Of a stretch of 64,000 bases of DNA, positions 7,831 to 13,702 are shown in pieces (position 1 is the stretch's first letter; each line of letters begins with the position of its first letter). Location of the stretch: NCBI GenBank assembly GCA_027485855.1, contig JAIXQD010000001.1, positions 517,575 to 581,574 of the forward strand. The letters are read 5' to 3'. The position numbers were made by a program, and so were the translations under genes. Below the pieces are notes generated by a model, which was given only the letters and a program-made list of their open reading frames with translations, did no database searches and was not told where the DNA came from. This DNA comes from Rickettsiales bacterium. GTDB lineage: Bacteria > Pseudomonadota > Alphaproteobacteria > G027485855.

Positions 7831-8529
7831 ATGCCCGTAGTGAAAAGCGATAGAGATATTAATTATTTTTATAGTTATGGCTATCCAATAACGCCAGATT
7901 GGTTTGAGCTGTCTGATTTAATTGACCAAAAAAACCCAGAGCGGCAGGCCTTTGTACAGCAGCACAAAAAGCTCAGAAGCGCCGCTATCATTGCCACTGT
8001 TGCGGTGGGTGCGTTGGGCTGTGCCGCGGTAGTGGGCGGATTCGCTGGGCTTATTGTTGCTCTTAAAATGGCCATGCCGGTTATTGGTGTTAATGCTGCG
8101 CAAGGCATTTTGCTTACGAGCCTTATAACAACGCTATTTGGCTCGGCTGTGCTCTGTGCCTATCCGCCCAAAAGTTTTCAAAAAATATTTGGCCATTTTG
8201 CCAAAGACGCCGAGCGTGAAAAGCTAAACCGCGCCGAAATGCACAGGCTCGATGCCGAGCTTGCCCCCTTCATTCAAGTCTTCAAGCAAAAACACGAAAA
8301 AATCGCTGCGATAAAAAGCCAACTGGCTGACACAGCAAAAATGGCCATTGCCCAAAAAACCGCCGACGGTCAGATGGTGCCCACATCTATCGAGGCCGCA
8401 TCCATCGAAGCTGCGGTTGCTGCCCCCATAGTTGCGGAAGCAGCAACGCCCGTGCGGCCCGTTTTAGCGCCCGTAAGGGGCGTCGTGCAACCGCGCGTTA
8501 AAATCACTGACGGCCCCATTCAGGCTTAA
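7831..8529 (+). CDS. Two-helix membrane protein of an island paralogue family, copy A1
   Basis: I do not recognise this family. The 232 residues divide into a soluble N-terminal segment with YPITPDWFELSDLIDQKNPE (about residues 18-40), a hairpin of two long hydrophobic segments (about 55-80 and 85-110), an amphipathic and probably coiled-coil region around LNRAEMHRLDAELAPFIQVF (about 130-160), an Ala/Pro-rich linker, and a terminal tail VKITDGPIQA. The same parts in the same order occur in the genes at 8554, 12221 and 13022. The ATG follows a strong GAGGAG Shine-Dalgarno. A cytoplasmic location of both ends is expected from the helical hairpin but not proven. Confidence 0.75.
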   Translation: MPVVKSDRDINYFYSYGYPITPDWFELSDLIDQKNPERQAFVQQHKKLRSAAIIATVAVGALGCAAVVGGFAGLIVALKMAMPVIGVNAAQGILLTSLITTLFGSAVLCAYPPKSFQKIFGHFAKDAEREKLNRAEMHRLDAELAPFIQVFKQKHEKIAAIKSQLADTAKMAIAQKTADGQMVPTSIEAASIEAAVAAPIVAEAATPVRPVLAPVRGVVQPRVKITDGPIQA

Positions 8530-8553
8530 AGGCCAAGAAAAAAGGAACAGAGC

Positions 8554-9222
8554 ATGAGCAGCGATACAAAAATAACTTATACCAGTGAGCTGAACGAGCC
8601 CATTAAACCTGCCGATAGAGATCTGGCTGCACTGGTTGACAATAATAGTGACGCACGAGAAAACTATTTAGCCCAACATAAAAAGGCTTATAGCAAAGCA
8701 AACTTTAGAAGCGGACTGATGGCCGCTACGCTTGGTGTTGTACTTCTAACGTCTATGGCAACATCCGCAATCTTTGCGGCAAGCGTCCTTTCGGCCGTGC
8801 TTTTGCCTGTTGCTGGCCCTCTGCTCACTGCTCTACTTATGACAACCACTGTTCTCGGCATTGGCATTGGAGCGCCGTTAGGATTTATAAAAATTATAAA
8901 AAAATATCAGAATGCCTTAGATAAAATGCTTGGTCTTACCGCGCTCAAGCAACTCAATGACGCGGAAGCAAAAAGGCTTAATGCTGCACTTGCGCCTTTT
9001 ATGGAGGCTTATCAATATAAACAAAAAGCAATTAAAGCCGCACTAAACATAAAAATTGCAGAAGAAACCGCAAGAGGGGAAATGGTGCCCACAGCACTGC
9101 CGCTAGCTGAAGCGGCGCCCTTGGTTGCTGAACAGGCACAACCCGTGCGGCCCGTTTTGGCGCCTGCCAGAAGCGTGGTTCAACCCCGCGTTAAAATCAC
9201 TGACGGCCCCATTCGGGCTTAA
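8554..9222 (+). CDS. Two-helix membrane protein of an island paralogue family, copy A2
   Basis: A 222-residue relative of the preceding gene, separated from it by 24 nt and with its own AAGGA ribosome site. The N-terminus is reshaped (YTSELNEPIKPADRDLAALV replaces the YPITPD segment) but keeps the position of the proline-rich motif. The hydrophobic hairpin is present, and the core motif is LNDAEAKRLNAALAPFMEAY. The last 25 residues, ending VKITDGPIRA, are nearly identical to copy A1, and the DNA encoding them is also nearly identical. Tail and core are thus conserved while the rest has diverged. Function unknown. Confidence 0.73.
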   Translation: MSSDTKITYTSELNEPIKPADRDLAALVDNNSDARENYLAQHKKAYSKANFRSGLMAATLGVVLLTSMATSAIFAASVLSAVLLPVAGPLLTALLMTTTVLGIGIGAPLGFIKIIKKYQNALDKMLGLTALKQLNDAEAKRLNAALAPFMEAYQYKQKAIKAALNIKIAEETARGEMVPTALPLAEAAPLVAEQAQPVRPVLAPARSVVQPRVKITDGPIRA

Positions 9223-9231
9223 AGATAAAAA

Positions 9232-9358
9232 CGTCAGCGACGCGACAAAAATAGCTTACACCAAAGAGCTGAGCCATCCCATTAAACCCGCCAGCAAGGT
9301 TCTGCCGCCGCCGCTTTTAATGCTTGGCGTGGCCACTGGCTACTGCTTGTTTGCATAA
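9232..9358 (+). pseudogene. Relic of a third A-type paralogue (start codon lost, truncated)
   Basis: Directly after copy A2 the DNA matches the start of A2: it encodes VSDATKIAYTKELSHPIKPA, against MSSDTKITYTSELNEPIKPA in A2. The initiator ATG has been changed. The similarity ends after about 30 codons, in PPPLLMLGVATGYCLFA, where a short hydrophobic remnant is followed by a stop. The membrane hairpin, core and tail are missing. Confidence 0.6.
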
Positions 9359-9528: not shown

Positions 9529-9942
9529 ATGACCAACGCCTTATGGGACGTGCAGGAGCAAATTTTTAATACACTCTGTGCAGATAGCGACATTCAAAAT
9601 CTGTTAGGTAACCCTGCGCGCATTTATGATTATGTGCCAGCAGATGTAATTTTCCCCTATCTGGTTATTAGCGAAATAGATGTGAGCCCATTTGATACCT
9701 GCGACCGCTATGGCTACGAACAATATTACCGCTTCGAGAGTTTTAGCCGCCAGCACGGATCAAAAGAAACAAAGCAAATATTACAAGCCGTGGTTGATTG
9801 CCTGCGCGGCAACAGCCTTACCCTAAATGGTCATGCCTTGGTCGATTGCCGATTACAGGGCATTCAAACCAAACGGCTGAAAGATGGCAAAACTACATTT
9901 GGCACAACACGCCTTGTTATTATAACACAGGAGATAATCTAA
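9529..9942 (+). CDS. DUF3168-type phage head-tail connector / tail completion protein (orphan)
   Basis: A 137-residue protein resembling the DUF3168 family, known from tailed phages and gene transfer agents, where it caps or completes the tail-neck junction. Recognisable features are the N-terminal WDVQEQIFNTLCADSDIQNL, the early IYDYVPADVIFPYLVI segment, the central YRFESFSRQHGSKETKQIL and the C-terminal strand DGKTTFGTTRLVIIT. I chose the ATG at 9529, which has a GGAGAG site 6 nt upstream, over an in-frame TTG at 9505. No capsid, portal or other tail gene surrounds it, so it is a phage relic or has been recruited. The stop overlaps the next ATG as TAATG. Confidence 0.65.
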   Translation: MTNALWDVQEQIFNTLCADSDIQNLLGNPARIYDYVPADVIFPYLVISEIDVSPFDTCDRYGYEQYYRFESFSRQHGSKETKQILQAVVDCLRGNSLTLNGHALVDCRLQGIQTKRLKDGKTTFGTTRLVIITQEII

Positions 9943-10589
9943 TGAACGGCTATAGCCAGACTCAGTTGGCAACGATGAGAGTTGTGTTTACACAGATGGC
10001 TGACAAGGTAGCAGAAGACGGGCACACACGCCTTGCTGAAGCTATGAGACATTTTTTATATGGCGAGGCTAAAGATTTTGATCTAACCGAAGAAGAGGTT
10101 TTAAGCGTACCAGCCATCGCCTCTGCCCGCGATAAAATTTGGAGCAGGGGATGGGTCGCGATAGAAAAAATAGTAAACGACATGCAGCGCACCAACAAAA
10201 TAGGCAGCAGAAAAAGCATTATTAACGATAGCCAACCGTTCAGCACACTTAGCATATCTGAACCAACGTCACTTCTTAGTCAATTTTCACACATCGTTGG
10301 CTCATCTACATTAAAAGCCTCGGGCTTTATTGAGGCAAATGTAGAACGAGAAGGTTATACACTCATAGGTAGTATTGACTTTGAGATAAAAGACTATTAC
10401 AATTTTGACCTTAAAGGTGATTTTTTTACAGATCTTTTTCGACAAGCACCTGTCAGGCTCTTAAGTAGCATTGCCAGCCCATACAAGCTTAATTTTGATA
10501 ATATTGAAGCCATGGTTTCGGCTGGCATGGCACAAAATTTTCTAACGGTGGCACGATGGAAAGAGACCAGAGATTATTTCAAGTTATAA
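9942..10589 (+). CDS. Hypothetical soluble protein coupled to the DUF3168 gene
   Basis: A 215-residue protein that I do not recognise. The ATG at 9942 overlaps the stop of the DUF3168 gene (TAATG), so translation is likely coupled. The N-terminal half is helical and charged. The C-terminal half, about residues 125-215, looks beta-rich, with the segment IDFEIKDYYNFDLKGDFF. That segment has a faint likeness to the D-x-Y-D region of colicin M-like lipid II hydrolases, but the aspartate after the tyrosine and the His-Arg pair are not there, so no such activity is claimed. It overlaps the next gene by 34 nt. Base composition is more AT-rich than the housekeeping genes. Confidence 0.6.
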   Translation: MNGYSQTQLATMRVVFTQMADKVAEDGHTRLAEAMRHFLYGEAKDFDLTEEEVLSVPAIASARDKIWSRGWVAIEKIVNDMQRTNKIGSRKSIINDSQPFSTLSISEPTSLLSQFSHIVGSSTLKASGFIEANVEREGYTLIGSIDFEIKDYYNFDLKGDFFTDLFRQAPVRLLSSIASPYKLNFDNIEAMVSAGMAQNFLTVARWKETRDYFKL

Positions 10590-11074
10590 ACCAAATTAGC
10601 CCTTGGCATTTATCTTGGCTATGGCCGGATGCATCTGAAAGAAGTAGCTGGCTATTTCAACATATGTTCATAGTTCAAATATACTGCCCTTTATTTGTAC
10701 TATTCGCTCTTTCTGCAAGCTTTAGCGAGGAGATAATAACTGCACCTATTATTATTGCCGCAATTTTAGGTTATGTTTTTCCTCTATACTGTGGATTACT
10801 TTGGGCATTAAGTTTTGTTATTTTTGCACTGAGTTCGCTGACCTTAATCATAAGTCATAAAAATACATTACGCCCAATTGCACGTCTTGCACTGAAGCTT
10901 TTTATTTTTATCGGCTTTATGTGGGTTTTTAGCTTTGGCGTTGCCTATGTATTTAGCAAAAACTTTCAAATGGACTCTTTTTGGTATCTGGCTTACGCAA
11001 CTGGATTTTGTGTATTTTATCTTTACAACGCACACACCGCGTTACAAAAAAGCAAAAACACCGCATCTGCATGA
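10556..11074 (+). CDS. Four-helix membrane protein of a second island family, copy W1
   Basis: A 172-residue integral membrane protein of unknown function. It opens with a short soluble segment containing ISPWHLSWLWPDASER, followed by about four hydrophobic helices (roughly residues 35-55, 60-95, 110-130 and 135-155) and a short polar tail ending KSKNTASA. The following gene repeats the opening motif and the tail, so this is one of a tandem pair. Its start overlaps the preceding gene by 34 nt and its stop overlaps the next ATG (ATGA), so the genes are co-translated. The Trp-rich motif just before the first helix probably sits at the membrane interface. Confidence 0.65.
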   Translation: MERDQRLFQVINQISPWHLSWLWPDASERSSWLFQHMFIVQIYCPLFVLFALSASFSEEIITAPIIIAAILGYVFPLYCGLLWALSFVIFALSSLTLIISHKNTLRPIARLALKLFIFIGFMWVFSFGVAYVFSKNFQMDSFWYLAYATGFCVFYLYNAHTALQKSKNTASA

Positions 11075-11565
11075 CCATAAAACAAATCCGCGCATGGCAT
11101 TTATCTTGGCTGTGGCCGGATGCGTCTGAAAGAAACAATCTAAAATTTAAGTTGCTGATAATTTCTCACTTATATTTGCCGTCATCCCTACTTTACACAA
11201 TGGCACTTGCGTGGAGAGTTGAGAAACCAAACCTGCTTGAAGAGGTTTTGGGCATCGCAGGCTTTATACATTTTGCTATAAGTTTATTTTTTTGGCCGAT
11301 AAGCCTTATATCGTTTTTGCTAATCCTTTTCTGTTCGTTATGGCCACATAAAAAACACCTTCTTGAAATGTCACGCCAATCGTTGCAGTTGTTTGTAATC
11401 GTTAGCCTTATGTGGATTTTAAGTTTTGGCTCAATGTTTACTCTGGCATACTATCTTCAAATGAATGGATATTGGTATTTTGGCTTAGTCACCATAATAA
11501 GTATTTATTACCTGTGCAAATCTCGCACTGTTTCAGCAATAAACAAAAACACCTCATCTGCATGA
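11071..11565 (+). CDS. Four-helix membrane protein of a second island family, copy W2
   Basis: The 164-residue tandem paralogue of W1. It starts at an ATG overlapping the W1 stop (ATGA) and opens IKQIRAWHLSWLWPDASERN. Helices again follow, and the C-terminus is INKNTSSA. The soluble motif and the last helix are conserved between W1 and W2, while the middle membrane part has diverged. This resembles the conservation pattern of the A/B family on either side. Its own stop again overlaps an ATG for a third copy. Function unknown. Confidence 0.65.
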   Translation: MTIKQIRAWHLSWLWPDASERNNLKFKLLIISHLYLPSSLLYTMALAWRVEKPNLLEEVLGIAGFIHFAISLFFWPISLISFLLILFCSLWPHKKHLLEMSRQSLQLFVIVSLMWILSFGSMFTLAYYLQMNGYWYFGLVTIISIYYLCKSRTVSAINKNTSSA

Positions 11566-11690
11566 CTATAAAACAAATCCGCGCATGGCATTTATCTTGG
11601 CTGTGGCCGGATACAACTGAAAGAGAATTAACCCTTTGTGGTATCCGGCCTACGCAACTGGATTAGTATATTTATTAGCCAAAATACAAG
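11562..11690 (+). pseudogene. Third W-family copy destroyed by an internal deletion
   Basis: The ATG at 11562 overlaps the W2 stop exactly as W2 overlaps W1, and the first 21 residues (MTIKQIRAWHLSWLWPDTTER) match. The sequence then jumps to the last-helix region: DNA at about 11637-11665 matches W1 at about 10980-11008 (GGTATCxGGCxTACGCAACTGG). The junction is out of frame, so the product is a 34-residue stub. The C-terminal part survives only in another frame (WYPAYATGLVYLL). Confidence 0.7.
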
Positions 11691-12137: not shown

Positions 12138-12220
12138 GCATCACGTTTTTAGTACATGAAAGTATTTTGAAGCATTAAGTTATATGCTTAAACGGGGTAA
12201 CGCCATGAAGGTAAACGCCA
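12138..12220 (+). promoter_or_regulatory. Conserved 83-nt leader of copy B1 (matches 12939-13021)
   Basis: This noncoding segment runs from GCATCACG to the B1 start codon and is repeated before B2 with only two differences over 83 nt. It contains a small hairpin (AAGCAT, 8-nt loop, ATGCTT, about 12173-12192) that is intact in both copies, and ends in an AAGG ribosome site. The coding sequences that follow are much less alike. Confidence 0.7.
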
Positions 12221-12901
12221 ATGCCAAAAATTAAAACAAATAGTGATATAGATTATTACTACTCGATGGATTACCCCATAACCCCCGATTATTTTGAGCT
12301 CGCAAAATTAATTGACGGAGAAAATCCAGCGCGCAAAAATTATGTCGCCACATTTGAAAAATTAAGCCGCAAGCCATGGCTTATGGATAAGCTAGCAGGT
12401 GTCGCCCTTCCTATCACTGTGCTTGTAGGTTTTTTTGCCACCGCGATGGTGGTTAGTTCAATTTTGGCACCTATCATTGGGCCATTTGCAATTTTGGCAG
12501 CTTGTGGCTTGAATCTCGCCGCAGGATTACTAAGCCTCGCCGCTGTGCTAAAACATGGAAGCAAAATTGAGAAATTTTGGGCAAAAGTGAGCGGCCACGA
12601 TAAGTTGCATCAGCTCAACCTGGCCGAAGCCAAACGGCTTGATACTCAGCTTGCGCCGTTTTTTGATGCATTCAAACATAGAGAAGAGCAAGTCAAAGCA
12701 GCCAAGCGAGCCCTTGAGCTAGCAACGCAAACCCCAATTGTCATTCAAACGCCGGATGGCAAATTTGTTGCGGCAGGTATAGAGGCGCAAAAAACGGCGC
12801 TGCCCATCGCCACAGCGGCAACAGCTGTGCGCCCTGCCCTAACGCTGACCGGGCCCAAAAAAGCCGGCGTAAAAATTACCAGCGGACCAATACAGGCTTA
12901 G
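12221..12901 (+). CDS. Two-helix membrane protein of an island paralogue family, copy B1
   Basis: A 226-residue protein with the same architecture as the genes at 7831 and 8554: an N-terminal YPITPDYFELAKLIDGENPA segment, a two-helix hydrophobic hairpin (about residues 60-110), the core DKLHQLNLAEAKRLDTQLAP (about 126-145) followed by a charged helix, a variable linker, and a tail VKITSGPIQA preceded by VRPALT. Copy B2 begins exactly 801 nt downstream, so the two arose by tandem duplication of a unit comprising leader and gene. No known domain is recognised. A helix hairpin with long soluble arms argues for a membrane-anchored scaffold or an oligomer-forming protein, but this is inference. 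Confidence 0.75.
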   Translation: MPKIKTNSDIDYYYSMDYPITPDYFELAKLIDGENPARKNYVATFEKLSRKPWLMDKLAGVALPITVLVGFFATAMVVSSILAPIIGPFAILAACGLNLAAGLLSLAAVLKHGSKIEKFWAKVSGHDKLHQLNLAEAKRLDTQLAPFFDAFKHREEQVKAAKRALELATQTPIVIQTPDGKFVAAGIEAQKTALPIATAATAVRPALTLTGPKKAGVKITSGPIQA

Positions 12902-12938
12902 TTTCACCATCATAACTTCTCGGGCATAACTTCTATTG

Positions 12939-13021
12939 GCATCACGTTTTTAGTACATGAAAGTATTTTGAAGCATTAAGTTAAATGCTTAAACGGGGTA
13001 ACGCCACGAAGGTAAACGCCA
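12939..13021 (+). promoter_or_regulatory. Conserved 83-nt leader of copy B2
   Basis: The second copy of the leader at 12138-12220, offset by 801 nt. The two substitutions lie in the loop of the small hairpin and in a CATGAA/CACGAA triplet. The AAGCAT/ATGCTT stem and the ribosome site are unchanged. Confidence 0.7.
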
Positions 13022-13702
13022 ATGCCAAAAATTAAAACAAATAGCGATATAGAATATTTTTATGAGGTGGAGCGCCCAATCACCCCTAATCACTTAGAGC
13101 TAGAAAATTTAATCGACGACCAAAATCCAGACCGCAAAAAATATCTGGCCGATTTTAAAAAATTAAGCGGCAAACCAAGGATAATGGATAAGCTATTAAA
13201 TTTCATTGGTGGCATGGCTGTCATTGTCGGCATTTTCGGCACGATGGCGGCTTTTTCAATTTTAATTCCTTTTATTGGGCCACTATTTGCCGCTCTGGCC
13301 GCTGGCGCTTCAATTGCCGGCACTCTTATGCTGACCATGATATCTGCATCTAAGTTTTTTAACAAAGTTGAAAAATTTTGGGCCAAGCTCAGCGGCCACG
13401 ATAAGCTGCATCAGCTTAACCTGACCGAAGCCCAGCGGCTTGATACTCAGCTTGCGCCCTTTCTTGACGCCTTCAAACAAAAACAAGCGCAAGTTAAAGC
13501 CGCCGAAGAAGCCCTTAGGGAAATCAAAAGAATTAAAATTGCCGTTCAGGCGCCTGATGGCAAATTAGTTGCCGCAGAGATAGCCACGCCACAAGCGGCC
13601 CAAAAAATTGCCACAGCCGCAACGCCTGTGCGCCCTGCCGTAACGCTGGCTGGGCCCAAAAAAGCCGGCGTAAAAATTACCAGCGGGCCCATACAGGCTT
13701 AG
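13022..13702 (+). CDS. Two-helix membrane protein of an island paralogue family, copy B2
   Basis: The 226-residue paralogue of B1. The first eight residues (MPKIKTNS), the core DKLHQLNLTEAQRLDTQLAP and the tail KKAGVKITSGPIQA are almost the same as in B1. The rest of the N-terminal segment (ERPITPNHLELENLIDDQNP) and the membrane hairpin have changed strongly. The pattern of well-conserved blocks separated by diverged blocks suggests either selection on particular parts or gene conversion between copies. The gene is the last of the island before the GDPD gene, which starts 57 nt later. Confidence 0.75.
   Translation: MPKIKTNSDIEYFYEVERPITPNHLELENLIDDQNPDRKKYLADFKKLSGKPRIMDKLLNFIGGMAVIVGIFGTMAAFSILIPFIGPLFAALAAGASIAGTLMLTMISASKFFNKVEKFWAKLSGHDKLHQLNLTEAQRLDTQLAPFLDAFKQKQAQVKAAEEALREIKRIKIAVQAPDGKLVAAEIATPQAAQKIATAATPVRPAVTLAGPKKAGVKITSGPIQA

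Follow-up and report, generated by a model that had tools for sequence, protein, structure and literature searches.

The question raised by this locus is how the noncoding leaders of two tandem genes could stay nearly the same while the genes behind them diverged. The locus lies in the window, that is the whole stretch of 64,000 nucleotides of a Rickettsiales genome which was analysed, and it is formed by two tandem copies, B1 and B2, with a start-to-start spacing of 801 bp and a repeat unit of 12138-12904 (Table 1). It is a clean and quantified case of a noncoding leader which escapes the divergence of the gene behind it, and it brings up the usual confounder met when conservation is taken as function, namely gene conversion versus selection on the leader. 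B1 has the architecture of its family: an N-terminal segment, a hydrophobic hairpin (about 54-111), a helical core, an A/P-rich linker and a short conserved C-terminus, in this gene VKITSGPIQA. The limits of these parts were taken from alignment, from hydropathy in the case of the hairpin, and from the helices in a low-confidence model.

Table 1. Coordinates of the B repeat units and of the neighbouring paralogues in the window
Feature	Position	Strand	Remarks
Paralogue A1	7831..8529	+	About 40% identical to B1; without the B leader
Paralogue A2	8554..9222	+	B family; without the B leader
Leader of B1	12138..12220	+	83 nt; 81/83 identical with 12939-13021
Gene B1	12221..12901	+	226 aa; open reading frame and alignment
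Spacer between repeat units	12902..12938	+	Without leader homology; the only matches are 3 nt (TTT) after the stop codon
Leader of B2	12939..13021	+	Alignment with the leader of B1
Gene B2	13022..13702	+	226 aa; protein 60% identical to B1

The base-level alignment bore out the coordinates and the count given in the original prediction, as the two leaders differ only at 12183 (T/A, in the loop of an inverted repeat) and at 12206 (T/C). The first eight codons, which had been described as alike, share 23 of 24 bases, and the first 10 residues are the same. The N-terminal segments and hairpins had been said to differ strongly, and at base level their identity is indeed 70% (codons 9-65) and 63%, respectively; the linker shows 66%, the core 86%, the C-terminal tail 92% and the whole CDS 74%. 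The block-by-block comparison that had been proposed thus upholds the better conservation of the leader against the whole CDS and against the N-terminal, hairpin and linker blocks (63-70%). The tail is the exception: with 2 differences in its last ~54 nt, it shows no significant shortfall in similarity against the leader (P = 0.17). Both ends of the B unit are well kept, and the leader is not alone in this. Homology between the copies sets in abruptly at 12138/12939 and ends 3 nt past the stop codon, the flanks being otherwise unrelated. The border between noncoding and coding sequence is ignored by the near-identical block: in 12138-12244, from the leader through codon 8, just 3 of 107 nt are different even though wobble positions are counted, and two runs of 45 and 36 bases are identical.

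Synonymous sites of B1 and B2 show 0.44 differences per site (dS about 0.66), and 22 of 66 four-fold sites are different, against 2 of 83 positions in the leader (P = 3e-7). The binomial probability of two or fewer differences in 83 is ~4e-18 at the synonymous rate of the pair and 1.5e-6 if the lower tail rate is used. Neutral drift since the duplication would have left the leaders far less alike, and the leader must therefore be either younger than the rest of the unit, having been copied over, or constrained. Another way out had been offered by the original prediction: strong diversifying selection on the protein would drive the coding parts apart, and the leader would then reflect a true, young age of the duplication. 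The hairpin, N-terminal and linker blocks are strongly different at the protein level, as this reading expects; it is nevertheless very improbable, because synonymous sites have diverged as well (~44% different) and dN is lower than dS in every measurable block (0.11-0.66), the fast ones included. The values of dN/dS are 0.54 in codons 9-65, 0.44 in the hairpin, 0.11 in the core, 0.66 in the linker and 0.22 in the tail, these being pairwise averages over blocks long enough to be measured, in which single positively selected sites may hide. With about 44% of synonymous sites different and all dN/dS values under 1, B1 and B2 go back to an old duplication, and their proteins are only weakly constrained outside the core and the tail.

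Several elements can be recognised in the leader. The inverted repeat AAGCAT/ATGCTT, predicted to be intact in both copies, is present as AAGCAT-N8-ATGCTT at 12170-12189 (stem of 6 bp) before B1 and as AAGCATT-N6-AATGCTT at 12971-12990 (stem of 7 bp) before B2, and the ribosome-binding site GAAGG, 9 nt before the start codon, is intact in both leaders. The functions suggested for the leader fared worse. A regulatory RNA finds no support, the folding energy being no better than that of shuffled sequence (z = -0.41 and -0.47) and any Rfam match at E <= 1 being absent; nor does a shared operator, if understood as a genome-wide one, the inverted repeat having only its two matches in 2.37 Mb at <=3 mismatches. 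The proposed search for further copies of the leader returned only the two known ones in the 2.37-Mb genome, and none in 57 class-mates or viral contigs; it is also missing from A1, A2 and the rest of the family. No consensus sigma-70-like promoter was found inside the leader by a simple scan. A regulator private to B1 and B2, or plain promoter and initiation constraint, is possible. A hidden frame overlapping the start codon, MLKRGNA(M/T)KVNANAKN, was also considered as the reason for the conservation and was rejected, its upstream part being broken by a stop in B2, where the inner ATG is lost too.

The reading preferred here, to which a probability of roughly 0.48 can be given, is gene conversion acting locally on the two ends of the B unit, perhaps with its seed in a short stretch under constraint around the start. 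B1 and B2 would represent an old tandem duplication of an orphan membrane-hairpin gene, and homologous recombination would have recopied short end tracts between the neighbours long after the duplication, above all the leader together with codons 1-8 (12138-12244) and, to a lesser degree, the final ~54 nt of the gene. The middle has diverged, its hairpin and linker being under little constraint, and may have fallen below the similarity needed for recombination and so escaped; the probable seed of the tract is a short region around the start that is held by constraint (ribosome-binding site, start codon and possibly a promoter). It would then be copying, not selection, that keeps the leader uniform, and RecA-type homologous recombination that does so. 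Between these otherwise diverged paralogues there is a tract of near-identity which takes in noncoding and synonymous sites, as conversion would produce. Conversion also accounts for a block at either end of the unit, whereas a regulatory leader accounts for the 5' end only. Inside the coding region synonymous divergence falls to 5/24.5 in the tail and rises to 25/38.7 in the hairpin, the other blocks lying at about 0.42; the permutation P of this patchiness is 0.61, with 0.06 for the tail and 0.03 for the hairpin. As the patchiness within the B coding region is not significant, the argument for conversion is drawn from the way the block runs on across the start codon, from the tail and from other arrays.

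A synonymous patchwork is also met in several further tandem arrays of this genome, among them those of C1/C2 and X1/X2, which belong to the B family. C1 and C2 (contig 24) have a near-identical block in codons 1-38 (113/117 nt), upstream sequences which are not alike, and saturated hairpins; conserved residues are encoded by the same codon in 35 of 37 cases inside the block and in 57 of 83 elsewhere (P = 0.002). X1 and X2 (contig 15) are alike only in their 3' third (same codons 52/62 vs 24/55, permutation P < 0.001). A1 and A2 resemble each other at the 3' end (P = 0.03), C2 and C3 in the core (P = 0.004), and Z2 and Z3, ankyrin genes unrelated to the B family, in the middle (P = 0.015). When each array is represented by a single pair (C1/C2 and Z2/Z3 where there are several), the patchiness of the six pairs combines to P = 4e-5, and this value, like the other P values of the array comparisons, those for the Z and Y leaders included, is a guide, the comparisons having been picked after the data were viewed. 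Protein constraint is no explanation for the patchiness because the measure takes only codons of unchanged residues. The near-identical block shifts its place from array to array, as short-tract exchange between neighbours would leave it. In the C1 array a remnant of another family tail (ATCAACCAACCAACACTAGCGTGA) is seen at L027:14399-14460, downstream of the C1 stop codon, and it shows that tails were exchanged or frameshifted there.

The leader may instead be kept by purifying selection, as a module for cis-regulation and translation initiation, while the protein drifts under weak constraint and no DNA is exchanged; this is a real though lesser possibility and a close second to conversion. 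Such a module could, just as tentatively, comprise a promoter or operator that contains the AAGCAT/ATGCTT inverted repeat, the ribosome-binding site and the A-rich first codons. The conserved block stops at codon 8, where the constraint of an initiation region usually fades, and both the inverted repeat and the GAAGG site have been kept in the two copies. Leaders are also kept better than expected in two other arrays: those of the ankyrin genes Z1 and Z3 are identical at 40 of 41 nt, against 67 of 148 four-fold sites different (45%, P = 2e-7), and Y1 and Y2 (contig 6) keep 29 of 31 nt around a perfect inverted repeat, GCGCAAGTAATTTGCGC, with diverged flanks and leaders otherwise diverged (P = 0.01). 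Well-kept Z and Y leaders are a prediction of start-region selection, and random conversion tracts alone do not predict them; it counts against conversion that such tracts are not expected to favour leaders, yet the leader is best kept in two unrelated arrays. On the other hand, the two long identical runs and 3 changes in 107 nt are tighter than is usual for promoters and untranslated leaders, which at comparable divergence are generally less well kept. Selection would further have to act on a leader for which neither RNA structure nor an Rfam match was found, nor a consensus sigma-70 promoter, nor a third copy in the genome, and which the rest of the family does not carry, and it leaves the low synonymous divergence at 3' ends unexplained. 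Both processes may act, and one genome cannot separate them; the host order is represented in the collections by this genome only, and no single-copy outgroup to polarise the changes was found in those searched.

It had also been suggested that the leader is a recombination site. In the Vpma/Vsp genes of Mycoplasma the conserved 5' untranslated region (-1 to -72) with the signal-peptide codons is the proposed recombination site, and it adjoins a xer recombinase (PMC2268961). The anatomy of B is similar at first sight, since in M. agalactiae and M. bovis a 5' leader of ~70-80 nt and the first codons are conserved, the bodies are divergent and the genes are clustered. However, the B leaders are two direct copies, both on the plus strand 801 bp apart, with no further copy in the genome, and an intact gene follows each of them; no inversion was seen and no lipoprotein signal recognised. 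All matches to PF00589 and PF00239 in the genome lie outside the window (tyrosine recombinases on C10, C15 and at C9:179 kb, one resolvase on C21), and a site for switching or shuffling genes, as in Vpma/Vsp, is extremely unlikely. Hardly more credible is an assembly artefact or chimera in which the assembler copied one leader into the other copy. The assembly is fragmented (34 contigs, contamination estimate 9.5), but the leaders differ at two positions, have distinct flanks and lie on one 676-kb contig, and arrays on other contigs show a pattern of like kind. With the regulatory RNA, the genome-wide operator, the recombination site and diversifying selection set aside, the options of the original prediction are narrowed to gene conversion, which is the reading favoured here, and selection on a leader private to the pair.

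Tandem duplicates are known to show partial homogenisation or constrained leaders, and the B case is of that kind; its signal is of good quality, its surprise moderate to low. Partial gene conversion (concerted evolution) of tandem paralogues is known to give the features met in B, that is conserved ends, a diverged middle, homologous neighbours and near-identical tracts which ignore coding borders. B differs from such systems in that no single expression site with pseudogene donors is seen, both copies being intact with leaders of their own, and in that the homogenised part is the leader, not an antigen core. Ordinary conservation of promoters and translation starts in duplicates likewise produces constraint just upstream of the start which fades within a few codons; the B leader is tighter and longer than this, with 98% identity over 83 nt at a dS of 0.66.

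Further observations were made on the ankyrin and Y arrays and their motifs. The tandem ankyrin-repeat genes occupy C9:498603-505205 (L029:604-7206, minus strand) and have a 43-nt leader that is almost the same in each copy; before the second copy it serves also as the C-terminal codons of the first. The two Y-type paralogues at L048:6245-7838 (minus strand, contig C6) carry their repeat about 17-33 nt before the start codon, within diverged leaders. In the genome the pattern GCGCAA-N1-8-TTGCGC has 28 occurrences and its reversed control 0. Six sites with the motif CTTAA(A)CGGG were counted in about 0.9 Mb examined, five of them lying in B and ankyrin leaders (window 12187 and 12988; L029 2033, 5804 and 7220), a post hoc count possibly due to chance. 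It is unlikely that the genome actively remodels many orphan tandem families by means of short 5' leader cassettes, the leaders of B, Z and Y serving as anchors dedicated to recombination or as a regulatory element in common (B and Z have the CTTAA(A)CGGG motif in both), with control staying uniform as host-interaction-like protein bodies diversify.

Young tandem arrays made up of orphan genes are numerous in this genome, and this is the setting of the B case. The B family itself, whose roughly 18 hairpin proteins are orphans absent from the other genomes searched, is a second point of interest. Its members are spread over five contigs of their own genome (C6, C9, C15, C24, C31), the loci being window 7831-9222 and 12221-13702, L022, L024 and L030-L045, and a decayed partial copy follows A2 at about 9221-9292. 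Relatives of the B proteins were found in none of 384 genomes of the class, nor among GTDB contigs, viral contigs, phages or plasmids, and Pfam gave nothing above cut-offs for any family member tested. The AlphaFold model of B1 is of low confidence (mean pLDDT 49). The architecture of the family recalls secreted membrane-hairpin effectors; no homologue of VirB4, as would belong to a type IV secretion system for effector-like proteins, was found.

Other features of the window lie between the paralogue arrays or close to them. A second tandem family at 10556-11664 comprises three copies of membrane proteins with a IKQIRAWHLSWLWPD start, of which the third is a remnant with its 5' end joined directly to a 3' segment and the middle deleted. 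A phage tail-completion gp17-like gene (PF11367) at 9529-9942, situated between the paralogue arrays, is perhaps a relic of a prophage or of a gene transfer agent.
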